This document shows, in pieces, positions 2,533 through 64,000 of a stretch of DNA of 64,000 nucleotides; the stretch's first letter is position 1; each line of letters begins with the position of its first letter. The DNA lies in assembly GCA_030835135.1 (NCBI GenBank), contig JAUQWO010000057.1, positions 1-64,000 of the forward strand. The letters are read 5' to 3'. The stretch comes from Bacteroidota bacterium. GTDB taxonomy: Bacteria; Bacteroidota; Ignavibacteria; UBA10030; UBA6906. The translations under genes and the position numbers were made by a program. The notes beneath the pieces are model-generated. The model made no database searches. It was given only the letters and a program-made list of their open reading frames with translations, and was not told where the DNA came from.

Positions 2533-3240
2533 TCATGCGTGCGCTCCCGCACCGGGCACATCGGATGCAATGCGTCCGTCCTCGAGCGTGATCACCCGGT
2601 GCGCGCGCTGGATGACGCGCGGGTCGTGGGTGGAGAAGATGAACGTCATGCCGTGCTCCTCATTGAGACGCTCCATGAGCTCGAGCAACGCCACCGCCGA
2701 CTTCCCATCGAGGTTCGCCGTGGGTTCGTCCGCAAGAACGAACGATGGGTGCGACGCCAGGGCGCGCGCCACGGCAACGCGCTGCTGCTGTCCGCCGGAG
2801 AGTTCCGACGGACGGGCATCAGCGCGGTCCGCCAGCCCCACCGATGCGAGGAGCTCCATCGTCCGCACACCGCGCTCGGACTTCGGCACGCCCTGAAGGA
2901 GCATGATGAACTCCACATTCTCGGCGGCCGTCAGCACCGGTATCAGATTGTATGCCTGAAACACGAACCCGATATGGCGCAGACGGAAATCGATCAGCGC
3001 GTCGGTCCCCATGCCGGTGATGTTCACCCCGTCGATGGTGACCTGCCCTTCGGTCGGATGGTCCAGCCCGCCGATCATGTTCAGCAGCGTGGTCTTGCCC
3101 GAGCCCGACGGACCGACGATGGCTGTGAACTCGCCGCGCTCCACGCCGAAGCTGACGCCGTCCAGCGCCCGCACCGGTACCGCGCCGTGGTCATAGATCC
3201 TGATGATAGTGTCGACCGTAAGAAGTGCCATGGAGATCAT
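2533..3240 (-). CDS. LolD/MacB-type ABC transporter ATP-binding protein
   Basis: ATPase of an envelope ABC transporter of the LolCDE/MacAB class. With the start at 3240 the protein has 235 residues: Walker A GPSGSGKT at 43-50, Q-loop FVFQAYN about 92-98, signature LSGGQQQR at 147-154, Walker B FVLADEP at 167-173 and a switch His in FSTHDP. The frame is open upstream to 3447, but that part is compositionally non-coding. The ATG at 3240 overlaps the TGA of the upstream permease (ATGA), implying translational coupling; a second ATG at 3231 is possible. The two permeases just upstream are its partners. Confidence 0.9.
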   Translation of the reverse strand: MISMALLTVDTIIRIYDHGAVPVRALDGVSFGVERGEFTAIVGPSGSGKTTLLNMIGGLDHPTEGQVTIDGVNITGMGTDALIDFRLRHIGFVFQAYNLIPVLTAAENVEFIMLLQGVPKSERGVRTMELLASVGLADRADARPSELSGGQQQRVAVARALASHPSFVLADEPTANLDGKSAVALLELMERLNEEHGMTFIFSTHDPRVIQRAHRVITLEDGRIASDVPGAGAHA

Positions 3241-4451
3241 CCGAACGTTGAAAGGGCGGCCGACGGCACGAGCCGCACGGCCTTGATCGCGGGGTAGAGT
3301 GCCGCAAGGAACGATGCCGCCATGACCATCGCGCCGAGCGTCGGGTAGAGCACCGCGTGCACCGCCGGGTAGAGCATCGCACTCATCCCATACATCGTCA
3401 GCCCCTCCGAGAACCAGGCAAGATCGATCCCGGCTGTCCCTGCCCATGCCAGCGTGAGGGCACCGAGCAGCGTCCCGGCAATGCTTCCTGTCAGCGACAG
3501 AAGGAACGTTTCGAGCATGATCATGCTGAAGAGCCGCCGACGTTTCATCCCCACGGCCATCAGCATCCCGAACTCGCGGACGCGGTCCAGCACCGACATG
3601 AGCATCGTGTTCGTCACGCCGAAGAGCAACGCGAGCAGGATGATGCCGAGGAAGACCGCTGCCGTGACGTCCGCGCTCTCGGCCGAAAGCTTCAACTCGG
3701 GGGCAAGGTCTTTCCAGCTCTCCACGCGCACCCCGGGCCAGGCTGCCGCGAGCTTCCGTTGCACGGAGCCGAGACTGTCGTTCGTGGCAAGGCGGATCGC
3801 GATCTCGTGCACCGGATGTGCACCGAGCAGCTCCGCGAGATCGCTGCTGCGCACCATCACCGTGGAGCCGTCGAATGGGGTCGATTCCGTGTTGAAGATG
3901 CCGGCGACACGGAAGGCGCTGTACATGATGGTGCCGTCAGGACGCTGGAAGCTCAGGACCAGCTTGCCCTTCAGGCGCAGGCCGAGCTTCTCTTTCAGTT
4001 TCTTGCCGACCAACACGGGCAGGCGCCCGGATCCCTCGAAGAACGACCCTTCCGTGATCCGGTGCGCGATGGCGGTCGCGGCGCGTTCCTTCGCCGGTTC
4101 CAGTCCGACGATGCGGACCCCCGTGGCCGTGACGGCGGACGACGCCATGCCGTCCACGAGCGTGCGCGGTGACACCCCCGTCACCCCCGCGACCGCACGG
4201 GCCGACTGTTCAATGCTGTCCGGGCCGGACAGGGCCATCGATAACAGCCGTTCTTCCGTGAAACCGGGTGCATGGATCTGCATGTGCGCGAGGTCGCGGT
4301 CAATGGACGTGCTGACGATGGAATCGTACATGCCCGTGAAGATGCCTGCAGCGAAGAGACCGCCCCACAGACCCGAAGCGATGGCAGCGATCATGATGGC
4401 GCTGCGGCGCTTCGAACGCCAGATGTTTTTCCAGGCAAGAGCGATCAGCAT
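3237..4451 (-). CDS. FtsX/MacB-family ABC transporter permease (second)
   Basis: 404 residues. Architecture is one N-terminal membrane segment (about 17-40, after the basic WKNIWRSKRR stretch), a large periplasmic MacB_PCD-like domain, and three C-terminal membrane segments (about 255-400) forming the FtsX domain, including VGMKRRRLFSMIMLE after the first of them. Such LolC/LolE-like proteins transmit ATP hydrolysis in the cytoplasm to periplasmic partners and move lipoproteins or hydrophobic cargo. It overlaps the ATPase start by four bases. Together with the permease at 4526-5767 it probably forms a heterodimer. Confidence 0.9.
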   Translation of the reverse strand: MLIALAWKNIWRSKRRSAIMIAAIASGLWGGLFAAGIFTGMYDSIVSTSIDRDLAHMQIHAPGFTEERLLSMALSGPDSIEQSARAVAGVTGVSPRTLVDGMASSAVTATGVRIVGLEPAKERAATAIAHRITEGSFFEGSGRLPVLVGKKLKEKLGLRLKGKLVLSFQRPDGTIMYSAFRVAGIFNTESTPFDGSTVMVRSSDLAELLGAHPVHEIAIRLATNDSLGSVQRKLAAAWPGVRVESWKDLAPELKLSAESADVTAAVFLGIILLALLFGVTNTMLMSVLDRVREFGMLMAVGMKRRRLFSMIMLETFLLSLTGSIAGTLLGALTLAWAGTAGIDLAWFSEGLTMYGMSAMLYPAVHAVLYPTLGAMVMAASFLAALYPAIKAVRLVPSAALSTFG

Positions 4452-4525
4452 GAGAGACCGTTGTTCGTCAAGAAATGAAGATAGCTGATTTCTGAAAGCT
4501 GATATCTGAACCGAATCCTGATCAT

Positions 4526-5767
4526 CTACTTCGTACCGGTGTTCATCCGCAGCACGACGATGACCGGGTACACGGCGCTGAGAATGCCCAGGGTCCCCAC
4601 GATGAGCGCCTGAGACCAGAACACCAACGGATCCGCGCTGAACGGCAGGATCGGTTCCATGCCGTACGCGAGCATCACCTTCTCATATTCTCCGCCGAGC
4701 ACGATGGGATGCGCATGGAGCCAGAGCACAATGGGGATGGCGCCGATGATGCCCGCTGCCGCCCCGGTGAGCGCGATCAGCACGGCCTCGATCACCGTGA
4801 CCATCGCCAGCCGTCCGCGGCGCATCCCCAGCGCGACGACCATCCGGAATTCCTTCCGCCGTTCCGTGGTCATCATCACCACCGTGCTGAAGATCCCGAA
4901 CCCGATCACGATGTACAGGATCAGGAGCATGATCACGGTGCCGCCGTTGTTCGCGTCCACGGCCTGCACGAGCTCGGGCAACAGCTCACGCCACGTCATC
5001 ACTTCACGCCCACTCCCCACGGACGCATGGATGCCCGCGGCGGCGGCATCGCTCTTCTCCTGGTCGGCCAACATTACGGCAACGGATGTCACCCGCCCGT
5101 CGGCGGCGAACGTCCGCTGCGCTTCCGTCAGTGTGAGGAAGAACGCATTATTGTTCATATCAGGAATGGGATATGCCAGGATGCCGGCGATGCGGATGAG
5201 ACCCGCCGCGGTCACCCCCTGGTATCCCTGTCCGTACAGTACCAGCGTATCGCCGACGTCCGCTCCCAGCATGCGTGCCAGCCCGGCACCCACGAGCGCA
5301 CCGTCGGTCCATGCCGCCAGCGCCGTCCCCCGTATCAGCCGCTTACCGAATCCCGTCATGCCGTCTTCGCGCAGAGGGTCGACGCCGAAAACCGGCACCA
5401 CCTTGGTGACGGTGCCGTGCGCGATGAGTGCAACGGTCTCGAGGCGCGGAACGACATGATCGACGCCCGGAATGGCCGCGGTGGCAGCGAGCAGTGTGCT
5501 GTCCACCGGCATGCTCTCGTCCAGCGACCGTTTCTCCCAGTACCCCGTGCCGTGCACCTGTACGTGACCGGTGGAGAACCCTACCATGGTCTCGATGAGC
5601 AGCTGATTCTGCCCGACCTGCGTGGAGGAGATGAGCACGGAGAGGAACACCGCGAAGAAGATCGATGCGCAGGCGATGAGCGTGCGCCGCGGATTGCGCC
5701 AGAGGTTGCGCCATGCGAGTCGGAACAGGAGTCCGCGCGTGGCAGCCGCTGTGACGGCCGGGGCCAT
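4526..5767 (-). CDS. FtsX/MacB-family ABC transporter permease (first)
   Basis: 413 residues with the same plan as its downstream paralogue: basic N-terminus (LAWRNLWRNPRRT), first membrane segment about 28-50, periplasmic domain, then three membrane segments around 275-405 with GMRRGRLAMVTVIEAVL in between. It starts only two bases after the stop of the LolA-like gene. The 74-bp gap to the second permease holds an imperfect short repeat (GCTGATTTCTGAA / GCTGATATCTGAA) but no obvious promoter, so the cluster is probably one transcript. Two different permeases with a single ATPase is the LolCDE-like arrangement. Confidence 0.9.
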   Translation of the reverse strand: MAPAVTAAATRGLLFRLAWRNLWRNPRRTLIACASIFFAVFLSVLISSTQVGQNQLLIETMVGFSTGHVQVHGTGYWEKRSLDESMPVDSTLLAATAAIPGVDHVVPRLETVALIAHGTVTKVVPVFGVDPLREDGMTGFGKRLIRGTALAAWTDGALVGAGLARMLGADVGDTLVLYGQGYQGVTAAGLIRIAGILAYPIPDMNNNAFFLTLTEAQRTFAADGRVTSVAVMLADQEKSDAAAAGIHASVGSGREVMTWRELLPELVQAVDANNGGTVIMLLILYIVIGFGIFSTVVMMTTERRKEFRMVVALGMRRGRLAMVTVIEAVLIALTGAAAGIIGAIPIVLWLHAHPIVLGGEYEKVMLAYGMEPILPFSADPLVFWSQALIVGTLGILSAVYPVIVVLRMNTGTK

Positions 5768-15268: not shown

Positions 15269-16315
15269 TCACTTCGTTCGCCCGTTCACCGGCGGGCACA
15301 CATAGAAGTACGGCGCCTTCATCGTTGCCATCCCCACCTGCGATCTCCCTCCCTGCAGGTAGCTGCCATACGGCACGGTCCGCGACGTGCCACCGCCGTA
15401 CCCTTCGTACCACATGTAGTAAACGCCGTTCATCTTCTCGACCGTCGTGAACCAGATCGCGCCTTCATCCCATGTACCTTCCTCGCCCCTGCCGAACACC
15501 GGGTTGCCCGGGTACTTGGTCCAGTGCACCAGGTCGGTGGATGTGGCAAGGCCGGCATGATACGGATAGTCTTTGTTCCGGTCGGAACCGCAGTACATCA
15601 TATAATAGAGCGGGCCTTCCTTGAAGATACGCGGGGTCTCCACCGTGAACGAGTCCCACATGCCCTCGCGTCCCACCGGCACCACCGGCTCCGCCTGCGG
15701 TTCGCCAAAGTGGTACCCATCGCGCGATATCGCATAGTGAAGCTGGAACCCCTGCTTGCCCGGAACGGCCTTCCAGAAATACAGATAGAAGATGTCGTCC
15801 TTCACCACCACCTCCGGTGCCCCGCCCATCACCACCGGGTTGCCTTCGTACTTTGTGAAATGCCTCCCATCGGTGGAGATCGCCAGACAGACGCTCCGGT
15901 CCGCTCGCGGACTGGATGCTGTATAATAGAGATAGACCGTCCCGTTGTGAAGAACGGTTGCGGGATCGAGTGCGTGGTTCTCATCCCACGACCCCGGACC
16001 CCCGACGTCGATGATGGGTGTCGGATGGATGTCCCAGGTATGGCCGTCGAACCTGGTGAGCGGGATGGTGGCAAACCCGATGCGATCGTGCCCACCCTGC
16101 TGTCCGCGGAAATACATGAAGCAGGTATCGCCCCGCACCAGCAGATCGGGGTTGGCACATTGCACATCGCGCCAGGTCCCCGGCGTGGCCGCGAAGACCG
16201 GATTGCCTGGATGGCGCACCCAGGTGAACGCAGCGCTGTCACGAGGAGCTGCAGTTGCCGCCGATGACGCGAGGAGCGCCATCATCAGGAAAAGGGACCT
16301 TGGAATGACATGCAT
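15269..16315 (-). CDS. Secreted five-bladed beta-propeller, GH43/GH130-like
   Basis: 348 residues with a signal peptide (core SLFLMMALLASSAATAA). The mature part repeats the blade signature of GH43/GH62/GH130 propellers: HPGNPVF, MYFRGQQGGHDRIGFA, YLYYTASS, YEGNPVV, YYMMYCGSD, KYPGNPVF and YYMWYEGYGG. This places it among periplasmic or extracellular glycosidases or glycoside phosphorylases; catalytic residues cannot be assigned with confidence from sequence alone. No sugar-transport genes flank it. It has its own promoter (16348-16376). Confidence 0.75.
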   Translation of the reverse strand: MHVIPRSLFLMMALLASSAATAAPRDSAAFTWVRHPGNPVFAATPGTWRDVQCANPDLLVRGDTCFMYFRGQQGGHDRIGFATIPLTRFDGHTWDIHPTPIIDVGGPGSWDENHALDPATVLHNGTVYLYYTASSPRADRSVCLAISTDGRHFTKYEGNPVVMGGAPEVVVKDDIFYLYFWKAVPGKQGFQLHYAISRDGYHFGEPQAEPVVPVGREGMWDSFTVETPRIFKEGPLYYMMYCGSDRNKDYPYHAGLATSTDLVHWTKYPGNPVFGRGEEGTWDEGAIWFTTVEKMNGVYYMWYEGYGGGTSRTVPYGSYLQGGRSQVGMATMKAPYFYVCPPVNGRTK

Positions 16316-16347
16316 GGCAGTGCTCGGATGGATACTGGGACACTACA

Positions 16348-16376
16348 AACATAGAGAGATGGGAGGCCGTTGTCAA
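16348..16376 (-). promoter_or_regulatory. Sigma70-type promoter for the GH43/GH130-like gene
   Basis: On the minus strand: TTGACA (16371-16376), exactly 17 bp, TATGTT (16348-16353). The predicted start is about 25 bases before the ATG at 16315. Confidence 0.75.
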
Positions 16377-16456
16377 GGATGTCCGGCACGTCGCGGATCA
16401 CATTCGCAACAACGCGCACACGCGGCCGTAGCAGAAAGAAGAAGGACTGCTCATTG

Positions 16457-16493
16457 ACGAAGGCCCGAGGCATCTGCATCCCCGGGCCTTCGT
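16457..16493 (+). terminator. Orphan hairpin, terminator-like
   Basis: Perfect 11-bp stem ACGAAGGCCCG (16457-16467) / CGGGCCTTCGT (16483-16493) with a 15-base loop, followed by GTGCTTG. It lies between a leftward promoter and the rightward CPBP gene, with no intact gene reading into it, so it may be the leftover end of a lost gene or an attenuator in the CPBP leader. Confidence 0.5.
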
Positions 16494-16531
16494 GTGCTTG
16501 AAACCATCACTCACACTACCATCGTGCCGCC

Positions 16532-17416
16532 ATGCCACAACGAATGACACCGGAACAGTCCCGGGCCCGGAAGGGGCTGGCGATATTCCTCGCCCTTGTC
16601 ACCATCGGCACCACGCCGATCCTCGTCCATGTCATCCGGAGTGGTCATCGGGTCGAAGACCCCGCCGTGCTGCCATTCATGATCGCACTCATGTGGGTGC
16701 CGGCGCTCGCATCCGTGATCACCCGGTTGGTGCTGCGCGAAGGGTTCGCGGATATCTCCCTGCGGGTGGGTGGACGATCGGGATGGCGTGCGATCATTCT
16801 CGCACTGATCTTCCCCGCGGTAGCCGGGACGATCGCCTACGGCACCGCGTGGCTCACGGGTCTCGCACAGTTCGTCTCACCTGCAGGAGGATGGTACGCG
16901 GGCATGGAACCCGGCATTCTCCGGTTCGCTCTCGCCGTTGCGACCGCAACGGTCGTCGGGGGAGTTGTCGGGATCATCACTGCTGCCGGAGAAGAGATCG
17001 GCTGGCGTGGCTACCTTCTCCCACGGCTCGTGCAGGCCGGCGTCCCTTGCCCCCTGATAGTGAGCGGTCTCATCTGGGGACTGTGGCACGTGCCGGCGAT
17101 CATCACCGGTCAGTACGGAGCCGGCCGACAGCCCCTCCTCGCAGCAGCACTCTTCCTGCTCTTCGCAGTCGGGATGTCTGTCTTCTGGGGAACGCTCCGG
17201 CTGCGTACCGGCAGCGTGTGGAGCGCGGTGATCGGGCATGCCGCGTGGAATGCAGTGATCGAAGGCCCGTTCACCGGCTACACGGCCGGTGCCATGAGAA
17301 CGCTGTGGCTGGGAGAGTCAGGCATTCTCGTCGCCGGCGTTGTCGGAGTGATCGCATACGTCACATGGAAACGGTCTGGCGCTGATGGACGTGCGATCTC
17401 TCGCACAGATCCTTGA
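16532..17416 (+). CDS. CPBP-family intramembrane metalloprotease
   Basis: 294 residues, about eight membrane helices. CPBP/CAAX-like (Abi, PF02517) motifs are complete: EEIGWRGYLLPRL with Glu154-Glu155 and Arg159, GLIWGLWHVPAI with His186, and a third HAAWNA motif near 235. These residues form the metal site within the membrane. In bacteria such proteins often give self-immunity to bacteriocins or process membrane peptides, but the context shows no bacteriocin. The 3' end overlaps the convergent SRPBCC gene by 56 bp. No strong ribosome site at the ATG; the Met at residue 5 is an alternative start. Confidence 0.85.
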   Translation: MPQRMTPEQSRARKGLAIFLALVTIGTTPILVHVIRSGHRVEDPAVLPFMIALMWVPALASVITRLVLREGFADISLRVGGRSGWRAIILALIFPAVAGTIAYGTAWLTGLAQFVSPAGGWYAGMEPGILRFALAVATATVVGGVVGIITAAGEEIGWRGYLLPRLVQAGVPCPLIVSGLIWGLWHVPAIITGQYGAGRQPLLAAALFLLFAVGMSVFWGTLRLRTGSVWSAVIGHAAWNAVIEGPFTGYTAGAMRTLWLGESGILVAGVVGVIAYVTWKRSGADGRAISRTDP

Positions 17417-55644: not shown

Positions 55645-55907
55645 GGCTATCCCGCCTCAGGGTACATCCAGATAGGAGGATTCGCACTACAGGGAGCGCG
55701 CCGAAGCGACGATCCGGACAAGCCGTGTGATCCCAGTGTGTGTGCCCGACATTTCGCCGGTCTGAGATCCATCAGTTCCAGTGGCATATCATCACCGATC
55801 GCCCGGTCTGCCCCGATGATAGGAGGGGGCTTTGACAGTTTCATGACACTTCCGTACTCTTGAAGGCCTACCTTTGCGCAGTCACGCCGCGGTACTGATC
55901 TGGTCTT
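55645..55907. other. Intergenic region left of the IS cluster
   Basis: 263 bp; no gene recognised. In particular it holds none of the integrase half expected for the truncated IS3 on the other side of the IS3 copy. Confidence 0.4.
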
Positions 55908-55971
55908 CCCCTGTTATAAAGGACACGAAGTTAAGCTCCAGGGTGTTACATAAACACAGGAGGATATACCC

Positions 55972-56287
55972 ATGGAGCAGTCCCAGACAAAAAAAAGCTC
56001 GGCGTCGTTTTGACCAGCAATTCAAGGTCGACGCAGTTCGGTTGTCGGAAGAAGCCGGCAAGACGGTGGCAGAATTGGCCCGGAATTTGGGTATAACCCG
56101 CAGCCAGTTGGATCGGTGGCGCAGGGATTTCCGGACATCGTCGTCAGTACAAGCGGCCTTTCCGGGCAACGGCAACCTCGGTGCGGACGAGAAGGAAGTC
56201 GAGGAACTGCGCCGTGAGCTCGCTCGGGTCAAGGAAGAACGAGAAATTCTAAAAAGAGCTATGGCCGTGTTCTCACGACGGCCGTAA
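55972..56287 (+). pseudogene. IS3 orfA, frame broken or slipping at an A8 tract
   Basis: The ATG at 55972 has AGGAGG seven bases upstream and reads MEQSQTKK, but eight A's (55989-55996) shift it into a stop after 13 codons. The rest (ARRRFDQQFKVDAVRLSEEAGKTV, then LGITRSQLDRWRRDF HTH and a coiled coil to RAMAVFSRRP) is in the next frame; seven A's would join them. Either orfA is inactivated by one added base, or transcriptional slippage on A8 makes the full 104-residue protein. Its stop overlaps orfB start as TAATG. Confidence 0.75.
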
Positions 56288-57159
56288 TGAAGTATGCGTT
56301 CATCAGCGAGTTTGCACATGAGCATTCTGTGGCGCTCATGTGCAAGCTCCTGGGCGCATCCAGAAGTGGCTACTACCGGTTCAGACTCCATATCGTCAGT
56401 GCCCGGGCAACAGCCAACGTGAGACTTCTGGAGGAGATCAAAATCGTTCACCAGGCGAGCCGTGGCATCTACGGCAGCCCGCGGATACATTTCGAGCTCA
56501 ACAAGAAGGGAAAGCCCTGTGGACGTCATCGTGTGGCCCGTCTGATGGCCAAAGATGGCATCGCCGCGAAAAGTCATCGTCGTTTCCGTGTGACGACACG
56601 CCAACGAGAGGGAGCCATCGCTTCCCCCGATCTCCTGGGGCGTGAGTTTGTTACCGAGTGTGCTCATCAAGTGTGGGTGTCGGATATAACATACATCTGG
56701 ACCACCGAAGGGTGGCTGTATCTGGCCGTGATACTGGACCTCTTTTCGCGGACTGTCGTTGGTTGGGCGACCAGCGCCCGGATCGATGCTGAACTGGTCT
56801 GTACCGCATTCCAGCGAGCGACAGAGCGATACCCACTGCGATTTCCGTTGATCATGCACAGCGATCGTGGCAGCCAATACACGAGTGCCATGTTCCGGGC
56901 GCTCTTGAGCTGCCAATCGGTCCTCGTATTCCAAAGCAACGGGAAAAGCTGCTACGACAATGCCATTGCTGAATCGTTCTTTCACACTATCAAGACCGAA
57001 GGGGTGAACCATGAGCAGTTCGCCAGACGTGACGAATGCCATGGATTCCTCTTCGACTACATCGAGGTCTTCTACAACCAGCAACGCCTGCATTCATCTC
57101 TCGGGTACAACACCCCGATGCAGATGCTGCAGGAAATAATCAACACCCAAGCGGCTTAA
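56287..57159 (+). CDS. IS3-family transposase orfB (DDE integrase)
   Basis: 290 residues. HTH_21 region (SRGIYGSPRIHFELNKKG, RHRVARLMAKDGI) followed by the rve integrase core with intact DDE: Asp in WVSDITYIW, Asp in MHSDRGSQY, Glu in AIAESFFHTIKTE, and the C-terminal YNQQRLHSSLGYNTP. Looks catalytically complete. Produced with orfA to move copy A. Confidence 0.9.
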   Translation: MKYAFISEFAHEHSVALMCKLLGASRSGYYRFRLHIVSARATANVRLLEEIKIVHQASRGIYGSPRIHFELNKKGKPCGRHRVARLMAKDGIAAKSHRRFRVTTRQREGAIASPDLLGREFVTECAHQVWVSDITYIWTTEGWLYLAVILDLFSRTVVGWATSARIDAELVCTAFQRATERYPLRFPLIMHSDRGSQYTSAMFRALLSCQSVLVFQSNGKSCYDNAIAESFFHTIKTEGVNHEQFARRDECHGFLFDYIEVFYNQQRLHSSLGYNTPMQMLQEIINTQAA

Positions 57160-57720: not shown

Positions 57721-57849
57721 TCCTAATATACCCTGCGACGAGGAGGTTTGGTAACGTCCGTATCTTTGTGTAAAAAGTAGAAGGTGCCGCTCCGGTTGAT
57801 TAGATTGTAGTTGCGAACCATCAATCAATCAACTGAGGAGACAGCACCC

Positions 57850-58812
57850 ATGAAGAAAGTACGTGCATCGGAGCAGAAACGCAACCAGATCGAAGCGATT
57901 CTTAAGAGCGGTTCTCGGGAAGCCATTGAGGACCTTCATCGACTGGGACAAGAGAAATTCTGGCAAGAGCTGTTGGAAGGCGAACTTGATGAGCATCTTG
58001 GCCGGGAGTGGTACAAGCGGTCCGAGGCCTCCCGGCAAGGGTACCGCAATGGCTACTACCCCCGGAAGATGATCGTTCCCGGCGGGATGCTGAACATCGC
58101 GGTTCCCCGGCTTCGCAACGTCAAGGAGAAGTTCACAAGTCGATTGCTGAAGAATGTCGCCGACATAGCCGAACGCGTCCGCAGCGTGGCGCTCGAAGCC
58201 TACGTCCGGGGGCTGTCCGTCCGCGACATCGAACAGACGTTCGTGACCGAAGACGGATCTCCGATGCTCAGTCGGAGTGTCATGAGCCGTGTGGCGACAC
58301 GTTTGCACGATGAGTATCTCGCCTTTAGCCAACGCGACCTCTCGGAACTGGACGTGGTGTATCTCTTCCTCGACGGCGTCTATGAATCGGTACGCCGATA
58401 CACCAATGGTCAGGCGCTGCTCTGCGCATGGGCGATTTGCGCCAATGGAACCAAGGCTATGGTGCACATTGCGGCGGTGCAGTCCGAAAGCGAAGACGCC
58501 TGGGTATCGTTTTGCGAGGACCTCTTGCGGCGCGGTCTGCGCCAGCCGCTCCTGGTCATCAGTGATGGAGGTCCCGCAGTGATCAAAGGCATCACGCGAT
58601 CCTTCCCCAAGGCGGACCGGCAGCGGTGCATCGCACACAAGCTGCGCAACATCGCAGCCAAATTACCACGCGACGTGGCCAAGGCCATCATCGAGGAATT
58701 CAAGGGCGTTTACTATGCCGCTGATCGGGCAACGGCCCTTGTACTGGCTGAGCAGGTGACAAGCAAATATGCATCGCAGTATCCATCGGCCGTGCAGTGC
58801 TTCAATGATGAT
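57850..58812 (+). pseudogene. IS256-family transposase, N-terminal part
   Basis: 321 codons from the ATG at 57850 (MKKVRASEQKRN; TGAGGAGACAGC upstream). Mutator-type transposase: ELDEHLGREWYKRSEASRQGYRNGYYPR, SVRDIEQTF, first Asp in LFLDGVYESV, second Asp in LLVISDGGP, then C/D(2)H-like RQRCIAHKLRNIA. Ends at ...QCFNDD, where the IS3 enters; the chain then hits the IS TGA. Confidence 0.9.
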
Positions 58813-58939
58813 TGAGGTGTACCCCATTGGCTGGACAGTTTTCAGCCATTCTTTAGGTGGATTATTTGTGGGTGTTGCTTTGGCTTCTACTGCTGTTCAT
58901 TGACAATCGGTTCCGCACCAAGTGTGCGTCCCGGTGAAT

Positions 58940-59800
58940 TCATGCGGCATTGATCCCGTGATGGTAGACCTCTGTCGGCTTCCGGTTCCCCAGTGATTCA
59001 TGGAAGCGTCGGTTGTTGTAAAACGCGAAGTAGGTGCCGAGCCCAGCGAGAAGCGTTACAGCCGTCTCGTAATTGTGAAGATACACGTCTTCGTACTTCA
59101 CGCTTTTCCACAGCCGTTCGATGAACACATTGTCCAGCGCTCTTCCTCGCCCGTCCATGCTGATCGCGATCTTGGCATCGAGCAGTGGCTGGAGAAACGT
59201 CTCGCTCGTGAACTGTGCGCCCTGGTCCATGTTGAAGATCCTCGGCGTGCCTCGGCGCAGAGCCTTCTTGAGAACGCGTACACAGAAATCCGCGTCCTGG
59301 GTATTGGAGATCCCCCAGGCAAGGACGTAGCGGCTGAATCAATCGATGACCGCAACCAGGTACATGAAGCCGCTTGCCATGGGGATGTACGTCAGATCGG
59401 TGCTCCACACGTGGTTTGGTTCGTTGATTCTCACCCCCCTGAGTAGATAGGGGTAGATCTTGTGATTCTGTGCTGGTTTGCTCGTTTTTGGCCCTGGATA
59501 TACCGCCTGAATACCCATGAGCTGCATAAGCCGGGCTATTCTCTTGTGATTCACCCGGAAGGTGCGTTCGTTCATCGCGGCGGTCAATTTCCGGATTCCA
59601 TAGAACGGATGTGCCGTGTATTCCCGGTCGATAGCCGCCATCAACGCGAGCGTCCCCGGGTCAACGGGCACCGGCACATAGTACAAACTTGAACGTGCCA
59701 GTCCAAGAAGCTCGCATTGATGGCTGATGCTCAGCTGGTCGTCCAGCGGATCGATCCCCGAACGGCGAGCATCAAGGGACAGCGTCAGACTCTTTTTTTT
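58940..59800 (-). pseudogene. IS3 orfB with a TGA stop in the catalytic domain
   Basis: Read from the A8 frameshift site it runs KKSLTLSLDARRSG, then HTH_21 (HPFYGIRKLTAAMNE) and the integrase core: Asp in STDLTYIP, Asp in NMDQGAQF, Glu in FIERLWKSVKYE. The trpytophan codon expected after LVAVID, where relatives have DWFSR, is TGA at 59339-59341, and the frame resumes at once with FSRYVLAW. A single TGG-to-TGA change therefore kills it. Confidence 0.85.
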
Positions 59801-60057
59801 AGGAAGTCGAGGTCGACCTTCAGTCGGCCGATCTCCTCGTACAGGCGCGCAATGATGGCTTCGTTCTCATCATGGCCGAAGTCCCGCGCGAAAAGATCAG
59901 GCAGGTGATCCTGGAGATGCTTCTTCCACTTCGTGATCTGATTGGGATGGACCTTGTACTCCGAGGCCAGCTCGGCAATCGTGCGGTCCTCTCTCAACGA
60001 TTCAAACGCGACTTTGCTTTTGAAGGCAGCGCTGTGTGTGCGGCGAATCCGTTTCAT
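59785..60057 (-). CDS. IS3 orfA with programmed frameshift signal
   Basis: 90 residues from the ATG at 60057 (MKRIRRTHSAAFKSKVAFE); the frame to 60096 is less likely. HTH (TIAELASEYKVHPNQITKWKKHL) and a leucine-zipper-like tail to FLKKRV. Eight A's on the minus strand (59793-59800) near its end are a slippery site: a -1 shift there leads into orfB, as for typical IS3 fusion transposases. Confidence 0.85.
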   Translation of the reverse strand: MKRIRRTHSAAFKSKVAFESLREDRTIAELASEYKVHPNQITKWKKHLQDHLPDLFARDFGHDENEAIIARLYEEIGRLKVDLDFLKKRV

Positions 60058-60131
60058 CTCTGGACCTCCTATGTGGAAAGTAACCATTTTTTCCACCTAA
60101 GCAAGCTGTCCAGTTTTTGGGGTACGGCTCA

Positions 60132-60431
60132 GATCTCGATGCCTGCTTAACGCATCTCAAGTACCCCGTGGGCCATCGGCGCTATATCCGCACGACGAAC
60201 ATGCTCGAAAGAACATTCGAAGAAGAAAAGCGGCGGACGAAGGTGATGCCGCAACATCAGAACGAACGGTCAGCGGTTGGTTTGGTCTTCGCTGTGCTGC
60301 ACCGGGTCTCCAAGCGCTGGTTCAAAGTCTCGATGACACCACTGGAACTCACGCAGCTGAGAGAATTGCGTCACCTGGTATGTCCGTCACATATCGATCC
60401 ACACTACATCTCGTACCGGATCGCGGCATGA
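60132..60431 (+). pseudogene. IS256-family transposase, C-terminal part
   Basis: Continues the upstream half: after GAT comes LDACLTHLKYPVGHRRYIRTTNMLERTFEEEKRRTKVM with the catalytic Glu, then SKRWFKVSM and the usual C-terminus. With the N-terminal part it makes a 419-residue protein, the normal IS256 length. Confidence 0.9.
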
Positions 60432-60709: not shown

Positions 60710-62362
60710 TTAGGTAATCTTGATCACTGGGAACTGCTCGGCAGAGCCACTAACATGATATGTGATAGATACTTGCATTGGTGCCGACTGCAAATATTCC
60801 GTAAGTATCTTGATTGTCTCATCAAGTTGATGTAGAAGGGGTTCAATATGAACGGCATGTGAAAGTGGAACACCTCGATATGGATAGCACTTCACATGAG
60901 CCTCGAGTTGGTCTCCCATAAACTCCAGTTTCTCCAAATCGATAAGACGATATCCGCTTGTCGAGGGGGTTGCGTCAGGCCTCTCACGATTCCACACTTG
61001 AAATTCATCGCATATCATGAGCAAGAACCCAAGGGGATCGTTCTTTAAGCGAATGCCCTTCTTTTGGGTCGCTCCTGGGCGTTTTAGAGAGTGAAATGCC
61101 ATCGAAGTGGCTGACCACTTCAAGAATTCTAAGAGATATGGATCACTCTTCAGGATTGTAAGCTCAGCATGTACTTTCTCAAGAAACATGATGCCACTCA
61201 AGACGCCATGGTTGATGCGGTCTTGTCCAGCAGAGTTCTGAAAAACATAGTTGTCCAATGGCCAAGTTCCTACGAACACACCATCATGAAGTTTGCCAAT
61301 GGTGGTTGAGAACGCGTTTCGAACGAATTCCTGAACGGGGGTTGCAGCCGTACCAGACCACTCTCTCTTCAAAGGCTTCCAACTTGAGGCCTCAGGCGAT
61401 GGGTATGTTAGAACCGCGCTGTTGACGAGTTTTGCGATCCTGGCGCCAATATCCGGCATGATTTCATAAGCATATCCGGCATCATGTAGTGTTGCACTTG
61501 TGAGCCAAGCTACTTGGAACAATCCCCACAGATCATCAGGATTTGCTCCCGCGAATTTCTTCCCAAGGAGGTTTTGACAAGCATCCAAAACCAAAGACTT
61601 GAAAGATGGCACTCGATGTGATATTACATACCCGGTAAAGTACACTTGGAGGACATGCTCAAGATGGCCACGCATCAGTGGAATCGTACCCAAGGTGATG
61701 AGGTCAAAGTCCTTGAATGAATTTGCCATGCTGATCACGGGCGCGAGAAGTTTGTTCACAGCAACTTTGCTCCTGAAAACATCCCAAAAGGCATCCCACT
61801 TTGCTCGAGCACTCTCTTCTTTCCACACCGCCGAAGCGGCCTCATTGATGAGTTCCGCCTCCCAAGCTCCGGTATTTCTCAGTTCCCGAAGATGCTTATA
61901 CAATGCTTGCCCAACTTGTGTCTCATTCGATGTCCTCCAGACGCGATCAATTTCAACTACCCATGCGTTCATTGGTGCATCCTTGCTCAAAAAACCATTG
62001 ATCTCAAGCTTCAGCAGCTCGTGGAAATCATCTACTGTCACCCTTTGAGAAAAGATTACAATTGGCATCTCGGGATACGCATTGCGGATGAGTTTGGCGA
62101 TGTCAACACCAATTCGTTCCTCTCGTGACTGGCCAGGAGTGTCCTCAATCAACCAAACAATATCTAGCATTATCAGGTCGTAGGCAGCAATCTCGTCCAA
62201 TCGAAGTTCACTGTCTTTCGCGTCCGATTCAACGATTCTCGTGACCACCTTCACATTGGTGTGTTGGTCCGTGTGGTCGAACCACTCCTTTTCGAGGAGT
62301 TCACCATATATCTTCGAATATCCATAGTCATCATCACAAATCAATATCCTCGGCGGCTTCAT
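60710..62362 (-). CDS. Response-regulator receiver fused to an HD phosphohydrolase domain
   Basis: 550 residues with AGGAGC seven bases upstream. Residues 4-135 are a receiver: DDD at 10-12, phosphoacceptor Asp67 in YDLIMLDIVW, Lys127 in GFLSKD. Residues 230-460 form an HD domain with all expected metal ligands: His233/His236 (RGHLEHVLQVYFTGY), His293-Asp294 (TLHDAGYAYE), His385 (NHGVLSG), His424 (MAFHSL) and Asp452 (CDEFQVW). It is not the HD-GYP type. The ATP-binding partner gene ends nine bases before it. The GC content is lower than that of the genes to the left of the IS cluster. Probably a phosphorylation-switched nucleotidase or phosphodiesterase. Confidence 0.8.
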   Translation of the reverse strand: MKPPRILICDDDYGYSKIYGELLEKEWFDHTDQHTNVKVVTRIVESDAKDSELRLDEIAAYDLIMLDIVWLIEDTPGQSREERIGVDIAKLIRNAYPEMPIVIFSQRVTVDDFHELLKLEINGFLSKDAPMNAWVVEIDRVWRTSNETQVGQALYKHLRELRNTGAWEAELINEAASAVWKEESARAKWDAFWDVFRSKVAVNKLLAPVISMANSFKDFDLITLGTIPLMRGHLEHVLQVYFTGYVISHRVPSFKSLVLDACQNLLGKKFAGANPDDLWGLFQVAWLTSATLHDAGYAYEIMPDIGARIAKLVNSAVLTYPSPEASSWKPLKREWSGTAATPVQEFVRNAFSTTIGKLHDGVFVGTWPLDNYVFQNSAGQDRINHGVLSGIMFLEKVHAELTILKSDPYLLEFLKWSATSMAFHSLKRPGATQKKGIRLKNDPLGFLLMICDEFQVWNRERPDATPSTSGYRLIDLEKLEFMGDQLEAHVKCYPYRGVPLSHAVHIEPLLHQLDETIKILTEYLQSAPMQVSITYHVSGSAEQFPVIKIT

Positions 62363-62371
62363 GATGTGCTC

Positions 62372-64000
62372 CTATTTTGGCAGAGAAAAGACTCGTAATC
62401 TCAGAGTTGTGTGAGTTTCTCCGTTAACCACTGATTGTTCAAGATTTCCGCCCCATCTCTTCCAGGTCTTTCGTTGAATAGCGAGAGCATTATTCTTCTG
62501 AGAGATAGACTCGACGTCTTCAATGCTCAGCCCGTAGTCATCTACAACTGTTATCTCGATGTGTGATTGAGACGGATCAAAGTCGGCCGATATGGATAAG
62601 GACAGCTCAGCTTTCTTCGGTCGTACCTGAAATGCTTCTATTGGATTCATCAAGAGATTTTCTATTGAATCGTCCAGATATTCCTTTGTCCCAAACACTT
62701 CACAATCTGGGATTGTGCCGACAGGCCTTACCGTGATCTGCGCGTCGTTCAGAACGATGCCTTTGGCTCTTTCTATAGCTCCGATAACAGCTCTGTCGAA
62801 TCGTGGAGTAATCTCTTTCAACATTTCGATCAAACTCCCAGTCTTCCTGCTTGGCACATTCTCGAAATTCATCTTTATCCAATTCAGAAACTCAGACGGA
62901 TTTTGACCAGACAGCCATTCTCGATAATATCCGCGCCCATCTTCGAGGACCGAATCGGGAATCATATGTCTGAGCCCAAATGCGGACGCCAAGTGTCGGA
63001 ATTGGTCAAGGAGCGAGTTGAACACTGAGGGAGATATCACCCCAGGGGCTTTCTTGTGTTCGTTCGCGTGCACCAATTTCTCCAACAATTTCAGTTGTGA
63101 CTTCATTGATGTCCGATGATTGCTGTAGTTGTCAAGGAAATTCATGGCTAAGTACCAGGCCATTTCGATAGGTTTCATCTCACCCTCGGAAAGAGCTTCT
63201 TGCATTCCAAATCGAAACTCACTACAGGAGTGTGATTTTGATGGGGCGGCCGGATCAATACCCCACCAACCCTCCATTATTGACTTCCGCAGTCCCTCCC
63301 GCAAATCCCTTTCCTTGCTTTCTATTAGTGCAATTGAGGCGATTGTAGTGCAGGCGTACTCTAGAATATGATCTTGAAAATATAGATCGATCTTCTGAGT
63401 GTATCCTGGCATTCGGTTTCTAATTGCAGCGATCGCTTCAGGTAGAAGAAGCGTCAGGAATTCCCCAGCAAGTTCACGATCTTCCCAATGAATTGAGAAC
63501 AGTATGAAGAGGCTCCTTGCTTCTTCATACTGTATTTGCTCGTGTTCGCTATAGCATCTTGGCAACGTCTGGGTTATTAGTTCCTTTATCGCTTTTCGAT
63601 CAACGAATTGCCTATTCAATTTTGGATCACAAAGGATGCGTGATATCAAGAGAAGTACGACCCGGGGCGACTTGTCCTTTGCGGTGATGCTATCTTTAAG
63701 GTTTTTCGCGCTGGGTACACCTGATAGGACTGAATCGTAGAAACGAACAACCTGATCGATTTCGGCTGGAAGCAGGATAGTATGAAGATCTCTCGTTCGT
63801 GCACTCAAGTAGTGAGGGCTTAGTAGATCCTGAACTTCTTTAATTGCGTATTGCAGGATTTCTGATCTTCCCGAATAGTTCTTCACTTTGGTCAGCAATG
63901 AGCACACCGGGCACGAATCCTTGCCATGGACTTCAAGATTAACCGAGACGAATGATCTGAACTCAAAGCTGATGTCTTTGTTTCGACTACTACGGTACCT
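62372..64000 (-). CDS. GHKL/histidine-kinase-type ATPase, 5' end outside window
   Basis: The frame is open to the window edge; a GTG at 63907 would give 511 residues, but the 31 codons above it read on without a stop, including CPVC, so the true start is probably outside. Residues 20-330 are helical repeats. Residues 370-510 are a HATPase_c domain: N-box EYLDDSIENLLMNPIEAF with Asn417, degenerate G1 VVDDYGLSIED, and G2 RWGGNLEQ followed by THTTLRLRV. There is no phosphoacceptor His H-box that I can see. It should bind ATP and act on the receiver-HD partner encoded nine bases downstream. Confidence 0.75.
   Translation of the reverse strand, partial: RYRSSRNKDISFEFRSFVSVNLEVHGKDSCPVCSLLTKVKNYSGRSEILQYAIKEVQDLLSPHYLSARTRDLHTILLPAEIDQVVRFYDSVLSGVPSAKNLKDSITAKDKSPRVVLLLISRILCDPKLNRQFVDRKAIKELITQTLPRCYSEHEQIQYEEARSLFILFSIHWEDRELAGEFLTLLLPEAIAAIRNRMPGYTQKIDLYFQDHILEYACTTIASIALIESKERDLREGLRKSIMEGWWGIDPAAPSKSHSCSEFRFGMQEALSEGEMKPIEMAWYLAMNFLDNYSNHRTSMKSQLKLLEKLVHANEHKKAPGVISPSVFNSLLDQFRHLASAFGLRHMIPDSVLEDGRGYYREWLSGQNPSEFLNWIKMNFENVPSRKTGSLIEMLKEITPRFDRAVIGAIERAKGIVLNDAQITVRPVGTIPDCEVFGTKEYLDDSIENLLMNPIEAFQVRPKKAELSLSISADFDPSQSHIEITVVDDYGLSIEDVESISQKNNALAIQRKTWKRWGGNLEQSVVNGETHTTLRLRVFSLPK

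Follow-up and report, generated by a model that had tools for sequence, protein, structure and literature searches.

A large GHKL-phosphoribosyltransferase sensor paired with exchangeable receiver-effector proteins, a candidate anti-phage family

In a 64,000-nucleotide stretch of DNA from a Bacteroidota bacterium (hereafter the window), two neighboring genes encode a very large sensor, built from GHKL ATPase and phosphoribosyltransferase (PRTase) domains, and a response-regulator receiver fused to an HD domain. We consider it probable that together these two genes make up a conflict system that moves horizontally and is most likely directed against phages, in which a receiver gates a modular effector, here an HD domain that probably acts on nucleotides. 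If this is true, the pair belongs to a defense family that current libraries do not recognize as a system, in which a receiver links one conserved, very large sensor to at least five effectors, an APH-like kinase and an HD hydrolase among them.

The window comprises positions 1-64000 of a 105,770-base contig, and its edge cuts the sensor gene. From 60.7 kb onwards, directly after a pile of insertion sequences (IS), the GC content drops from ~0.62 to 0.45-0.49, in agreement with the first-pass annotation, which had described the last 3.3 kb as AT-rich. The two minus-strand genes are, as it had also stated, exactly 9 nt apart, with the sensor stop at 62372 and the receiver-HD ATG at 62362. Low GC persists until about contig 75 kb. 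This island further contains an IS21 pair, a C5-cytosine methylase (5mC restriction-modification cluster) and a candidate endonuclease of 511 aa, whose BpuJI_N match is weak (E 0.014); an HhH-GPD glycosylase-like protein encoded there is recognized by a PADLOC nicking-endonuclease model. The methylase, the 511-aa protein and the HhH-GPD protein lie in one operon outside the window (contig 70948-74265), which is probably a type II restriction-modification system with a mismatch-repair partner; the candidate restriction endonuclease has almost no known relatives. Within the IS pile, judging from ORF translations, a transposase ORF (57811-58815) apparently resumes at 60117-60431, interrupted by an IS3-like insertion (58940-60096, minus strand), giving an IS within an IS, which a further IS3-like pair (55874-57159) adjoins.

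The receiver-HD gene (60710-62362, minus strand) encodes 550 aa. Its receiver domain (aa 1-131; 61970-62362, minus strand) matches PF00072 at E 4.7e-9 and CheY-like chains at a Z score of about 10. It carries the residues of two-component receivers, namely the acidic pair D10-D12, the phospho-site D67, a Thr/Ser and K127, so that the catalytic site is intact; in the underlying alignment, the CheY row served only for visual orientation. The HD phosphohydrolase domain (about aa 204-492; 60887-61753, minus strand) was compared with its relatives in an alignment of 36 HD proteins. H293, D294, H385, H424 and D452 are invariant and H233 and H236 are conserved at ≥90%, and these are precisely the metal ligands listed in the first-pass annotation; E453, Q455, W457 and R459 are invariant as well. 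The His/Asp metal ligands, including the HD doublet, lie in a helical fold, as in the HD superfamily. In an AlphaFold2 model (pLDDT 70.9), aa 202-539 match exopolyphosphatases in their HD-type part (Z 10.0-10.3), while PDE9 is matched by aa 145-537 (Z 9.6, 242 residues). Such values can arise by chance in helical bundles, and the HD assignment therefore rests mainly on the ligands. The best whole-chain Foldseek matches are PorX, a receiver protein with a different output. As the first-pass annotation had stated, the domain is not of the HD-GYP type: the signature HHExxDGxGYP and the GYP motif are absent, and the sequence reads LHDAGY.

On the extended contig, the complete sensor gene was traced to a start at contig position 67126; its product has 1584 aa, and the window covers aa 1043-1584 (62372-64000, minus strand). 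The histidine-kinase-like GHKL domain seen at first pass was correctly recognized, but the 511-aa GTG ORF assigned to it is only the last third of a much longer gene. The sensor consists of an N-terminal GHKL ATPase, two PRTase domains, a CPxC motif, a helical region and a C-terminal histidine-kinase-like module. Both PRTase stretches have Pfam and NCBIfam matches, and the family profile matches HGPRTs in the PDB. Their assignment as type I PRTases follows from PF00156 (E 3.7e-8) and from the PRPP motif of the second domain, which is intact (FLDDGIATG) in the window sensor and in most members. In the first domain, the motif is degenerate in the window sensor (CDVVDTRT versus DDVLDTGT in the relative L007), and in L114 both motifs are degenerate. 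The CPVC motif (aa 1072-1075; 63902-63913, minus strand), with which the second PRTase region ends, is real, since CPxC is kept in 6 of 7 members directly after the PRTase domain. It had been taken as a hint of one further domain beyond the window, perhaps a PRTase-type or zinc-binding one; a PRTase is indeed present, but the guess was incomplete, as the protein has two PRTase domains and two GHKL modules.

The two GHKL modules differ in how they were recognized. For the N-terminal one, HATPase_c is the sole Pfam match and a weak one (E 0.0063 in the window sensor, 0.0024 in L007), and its profile found no match among PDB sequences; DxGxGI and other motif columns are invariant in five members. 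Possible STAS-like stretches flank this module in our own reading, which no tool supports. The C-terminal module (aa 1365-1578; 62393-63034, minus strand) follows a helical region (aa 1086-1364; 63035-63871, minus strand) delineated from the secondary structure of a low-confidence model. It matches HATPase_c at E 1.2e-5 in L007, and the family profile leads to DesK, VanS and PhoQ; nearly all Foldseek matches of the sensor C-terminus are histidine kinases, which lends weak support given a model pLDDT of 51. The module thus appears to resemble a histidine-kinase DHp-CA unit that lacks the conserved phosphoacceptor. None of the seven sensors shares a conserved phosphoacceptor His in DHp (FFHDL of L114 is FFDDI in L120), which bears out the earlier description of a kinase-like ATPase without such a residue beside a receiver-switched phosphohydrolase.

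Six further sensor copies were found in unrelated genomes or contigs, giving seven members in all, and the complete sensors measure 1577-1867 aa. In all seven, the gene directly after the sensor, starting -65 to +9 nt from the sensor stop, joins an effector to a receiver, in some cases a degenerate one. At least five effector types stand behind this one sensor: HD, DpnII/MboI nuclease, PNP, APH-like kinase and TIR. The window pair itself recurs in L007, an IMG/VR contig, with 31% identity for the sensor and 35% for the receiver-HD protein over its full length; a resolvase-like gene adjoins it. L007 was found through motif-widened HD-domain patterns. The artificial motif-variant rows in alignments A1, A4 and A5 were used only to widen these peptide search patterns, and the resulting matches were confirmed by tblastn against the real window sequence. 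In genome contigs, the HD patterns led to 79 loci with distant HD proteins, many of them HD-RyR, and none of these had a sensor.

The other members carry other effectors. A PRTase-region profile identified L092 in the planctomycete sample, where the contig-cut N-terminal GHKL module, both PRTase motifs and CPCC are present, the sensor gene is then split by transposase-like ORFs, and a C-terminal GHKL-like remnant remains. One base past this remnant lies a receiver fused to REase_DpnII-MboI (PF18742, E 7.5e-31). The interruption spans L092 positions 2563-4801 and leaves the receiver-nuclease gene intact. A rebuilt profile recovered two members in the window's own phylum. L113 has a sensor of 1867 aa and a receiver-like-PNP partner (PF01048, E 2.4e-10; PADLOC PDC-M60C, E 5.1e-30), and L114 has a sensor of 1596 aa and a receiver-APH-like kinase. 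Two more came from the family of genome G126: L120, with a sensor of 1577 aa and again a receiver-APH-like kinase, and L121, with a sensor of 1709 aa and a receiver-like domain fused to CAP12/Pycsar TIR (E 5.9e-24). The L114 and L120 sensors share 55% identity across hosts of different families, which fits horizontal transfer. One member lies inside a type I restriction-modification operon beside Wadjet JetC/JetD, and another on a mobile element with a recombinase and ArdC. In the defense island of L113, a 247-aa protein (16297-17040; HATPase_c, E 2.6e-5) is encoded downstream of an hsdR-type gene.

The family is coherent and sparsely distributed. Leave-one-out profiles recover each of the seven sensors at E ≤ 3.4e-60, while the best shuffled control reaches 0.0086. 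When a whole clade was left out, the window sensor (3.4e-20), L007 (2.4e-17), L113 (7.9e-19), L121 (3.2e-20) and L120 (2.7e-11) were still recovered; L114 alone failed (E 0.047 versus 0.039 for the shuffle) and is placed in the family because of its identity to L120. The better profile recognized 3 sensors among 395 genomes; of the 89 genomes giving a match in this search, most carry ordinary PRTases (about 180-350 aa) and were discarded. Sensors occur in 1 of 343 genomes of the planctomycete sample and in 3 of 178 genomes of one family. The pair is not part of the core genes of its lineage, as no receiver-HD relative was found in the 295 other genomes of the phylum sample; a match in G039 proved to be an NtrC-type regulator. 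No outcome listed as refuting in the first-pass annotation was encountered. The Desulfobacterota sample (345 genomes, A6 profile) gave no sensor match, and neither did the Chloroflexi sample (251 genomes) with A9, a weak null as this profile was not validated there. No match was obtained by tblastn against plasmids (window, L007, L092, L113, L114 and L121 proteins) or phages (window receiver-HD and L007 sensor), by single-protein scans of viral contigs, by profile scans with A12 and A13, or by the first scan of genome contigs with A2.

The gene pair with its domains, the receiver and HD sites, both intact, the recurrence at seven loci, the exchange of effectors and the island setting are observed; from them we propose a model for the pair, whose defense role and chemistry we infer. 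The two PRTase-fold domains of the cytosolic sensor would probably bind a nucleotide or PRPP-like ligand. Upon infection, a phage cue or a nucleotide imbalance may switch the sensor, which would then activate its partner's receiver; for the window pair, phosphorylation of D67 is the most likely route. The activated receiver would release the HD domain to hydrolyze nucleotides, and this could stop the infected cell in an abortive-infection-type growth arrest. The strongest hint of a modular immune system is that the same receiver slot exchanges effectors. TIR, PNP and DpnII/MboI nuclease domains are parts of known immune systems, and their presence in this slot favors defense; PADLOC and Pfam matches partly back the immune-type identity of the exchanged effectors. 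Of the first-pass guess, the defense role is favored by this exchange; nucleotide depletion or signal destruction by the HD enzyme stays conjectural, and HD is one of at least five outputs. Counting against our model are the degenerate first PRTase of the window sensor, the degenerate motifs of L114 and the weak N-terminal GHKL calls.

The main rival concerns how the receiver is switched. The PRTases might make or bind a nucleotide-like messenger and the GHKL modules act as ATP-driven switches, with the receiver responding to a nucleotide or a protein, independently of His-Asp phosphotransfer. Receivers have been proposed as nucleotide-responsive switches in conflict systems (PMC8195603), and PRTases have been described as signal makers in the Ter system (PMC7824862). 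Five receivers keep the phospho-site residues, which the PNP and TIR members have lost: phospho-Asp and acidic residues are retained in the window, L007 and L092 receivers and missing from L113 and L121, whose receiver-like parts are read as receivers from the alignment, Pfam giving no match there. Because these two remain paired with a sensor and the family lacks a conserved phosphoacceptor His, phosphotransfer cannot be general, a further point against our model, and the intact second PRPP motif of most members also fits a messenger. On the other hand, five of the seven receivers retain their catalytic residues and the sensor C-terminus resembles histidine kinases, and we regard this route as possible but clearly the less likely one. 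The same low likelihood attaches to a separate immune-signaling class in which a GHKL-PRTase sensor makes or reads a nucleotide ligand and gates plug-in receiver-effectors without classical His-Asp phosphotransfer. Effector exchange behind one sensor offers a directly testable case of receivers gating immune outputs. Whether phosphorylation is needed at all is a question raised by those members that have lost the phospho-site.

Ordinary two-component regulation without a defense role is improbable. Bacterial regulatory systems usually combine a receiver with a histidine-kinase-like ATPase, yet none of the seven members has a DNA-binding output, the outputs are immune-type effectors, and the sparse distribution and mobile or defense-island contexts also argue against it. 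Least probable of all is that the receiver-HD protein serves as a resetting off-switch, not as the killing output, by destroying a nucleotide signal made by the sensor: PRTases could make such a signal and HD enzymes commonly hydrolyze signaling nucleotides, but nuclease, PNP, TIR and APH-like domains in the same slot cannot all be erasers, and no separate effector gene lies beside the window pair.

Among known systems, Detocs is the closest to the proposed conflict system in logic. PNP is the effector type of its DtcC, and the L113 partner likewise joins a receiver-like domain to PNP. Detocs consists of the histidine kinase DtcA, the receiver buffer DtcB and the receiver-effector DtcC (PMC11728103). 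As in Detocs, a kinase-like sensor would gate an effector through a fused receiver in all seven pairs, although the sensor here is only histidine-kinase-like. In contrast to Detocs, this sensor has PRTase domains, two GHKL modules and no conserved phosphoacceptor His, and no DtcB-like receiver gene accompanies the window pair or occurs in the complete neighborhoods of L113, L114, L120 and L121. On account of the missing DtcB and the different sensor, the pair does not qualify as Detocs.

HEF_HK/Response_reg_2 pairs, in which a soluble GHKL protein stands beside a receiver protein, are linked to C5-cytosine restriction-modification clusters (PMC8011034). The window pair shares both the GHKL and receiver proteins and the linkage to a C5-methylase cluster, but its sensor lacks the conserved DHp His and contains PRTase domains. 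PF19191 and PF19192 gave no match at E ≤ 1 in Pfam scans of the window proteins, nor did PF19192 in the whole genome, a search with no responding control. PRTase-CE (PF24390) shares the PRTase fold in a conflict-type protein, yet the PRTases here are embedded between two GHKL modules; PF24390 scores 12.3 bits against L007, far under its cut-off of 27, and has no match in the window protein. No whole-sensor model exists in Pfam, NCBIfam or PADLOC (2023), and the architecture is undescribed in the open-access literature searched. The DefensePredictor figures name HATPase plus REC among predicted systems and PRTase among validated ones (PMC13092281), and overlap with those systems is possible.

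HD-RyR proteins of Methanobrevibacter and Clostridia possess an HD domain related to this one, in which every ligand and the CDExQxW motif are present. They differ from the receiver-HD protein in having no receiver and no sensor gene nearby, and most of those scanned end in a C-terminal RyR domain. In Methanobrevibacter genomes, related HD proteins of about 750-800 aa are also encoded as tandem pairs, and several of these proteins contain RyR domains, at loci L010, L014, L015, L025, L029, L046, L047 and others.
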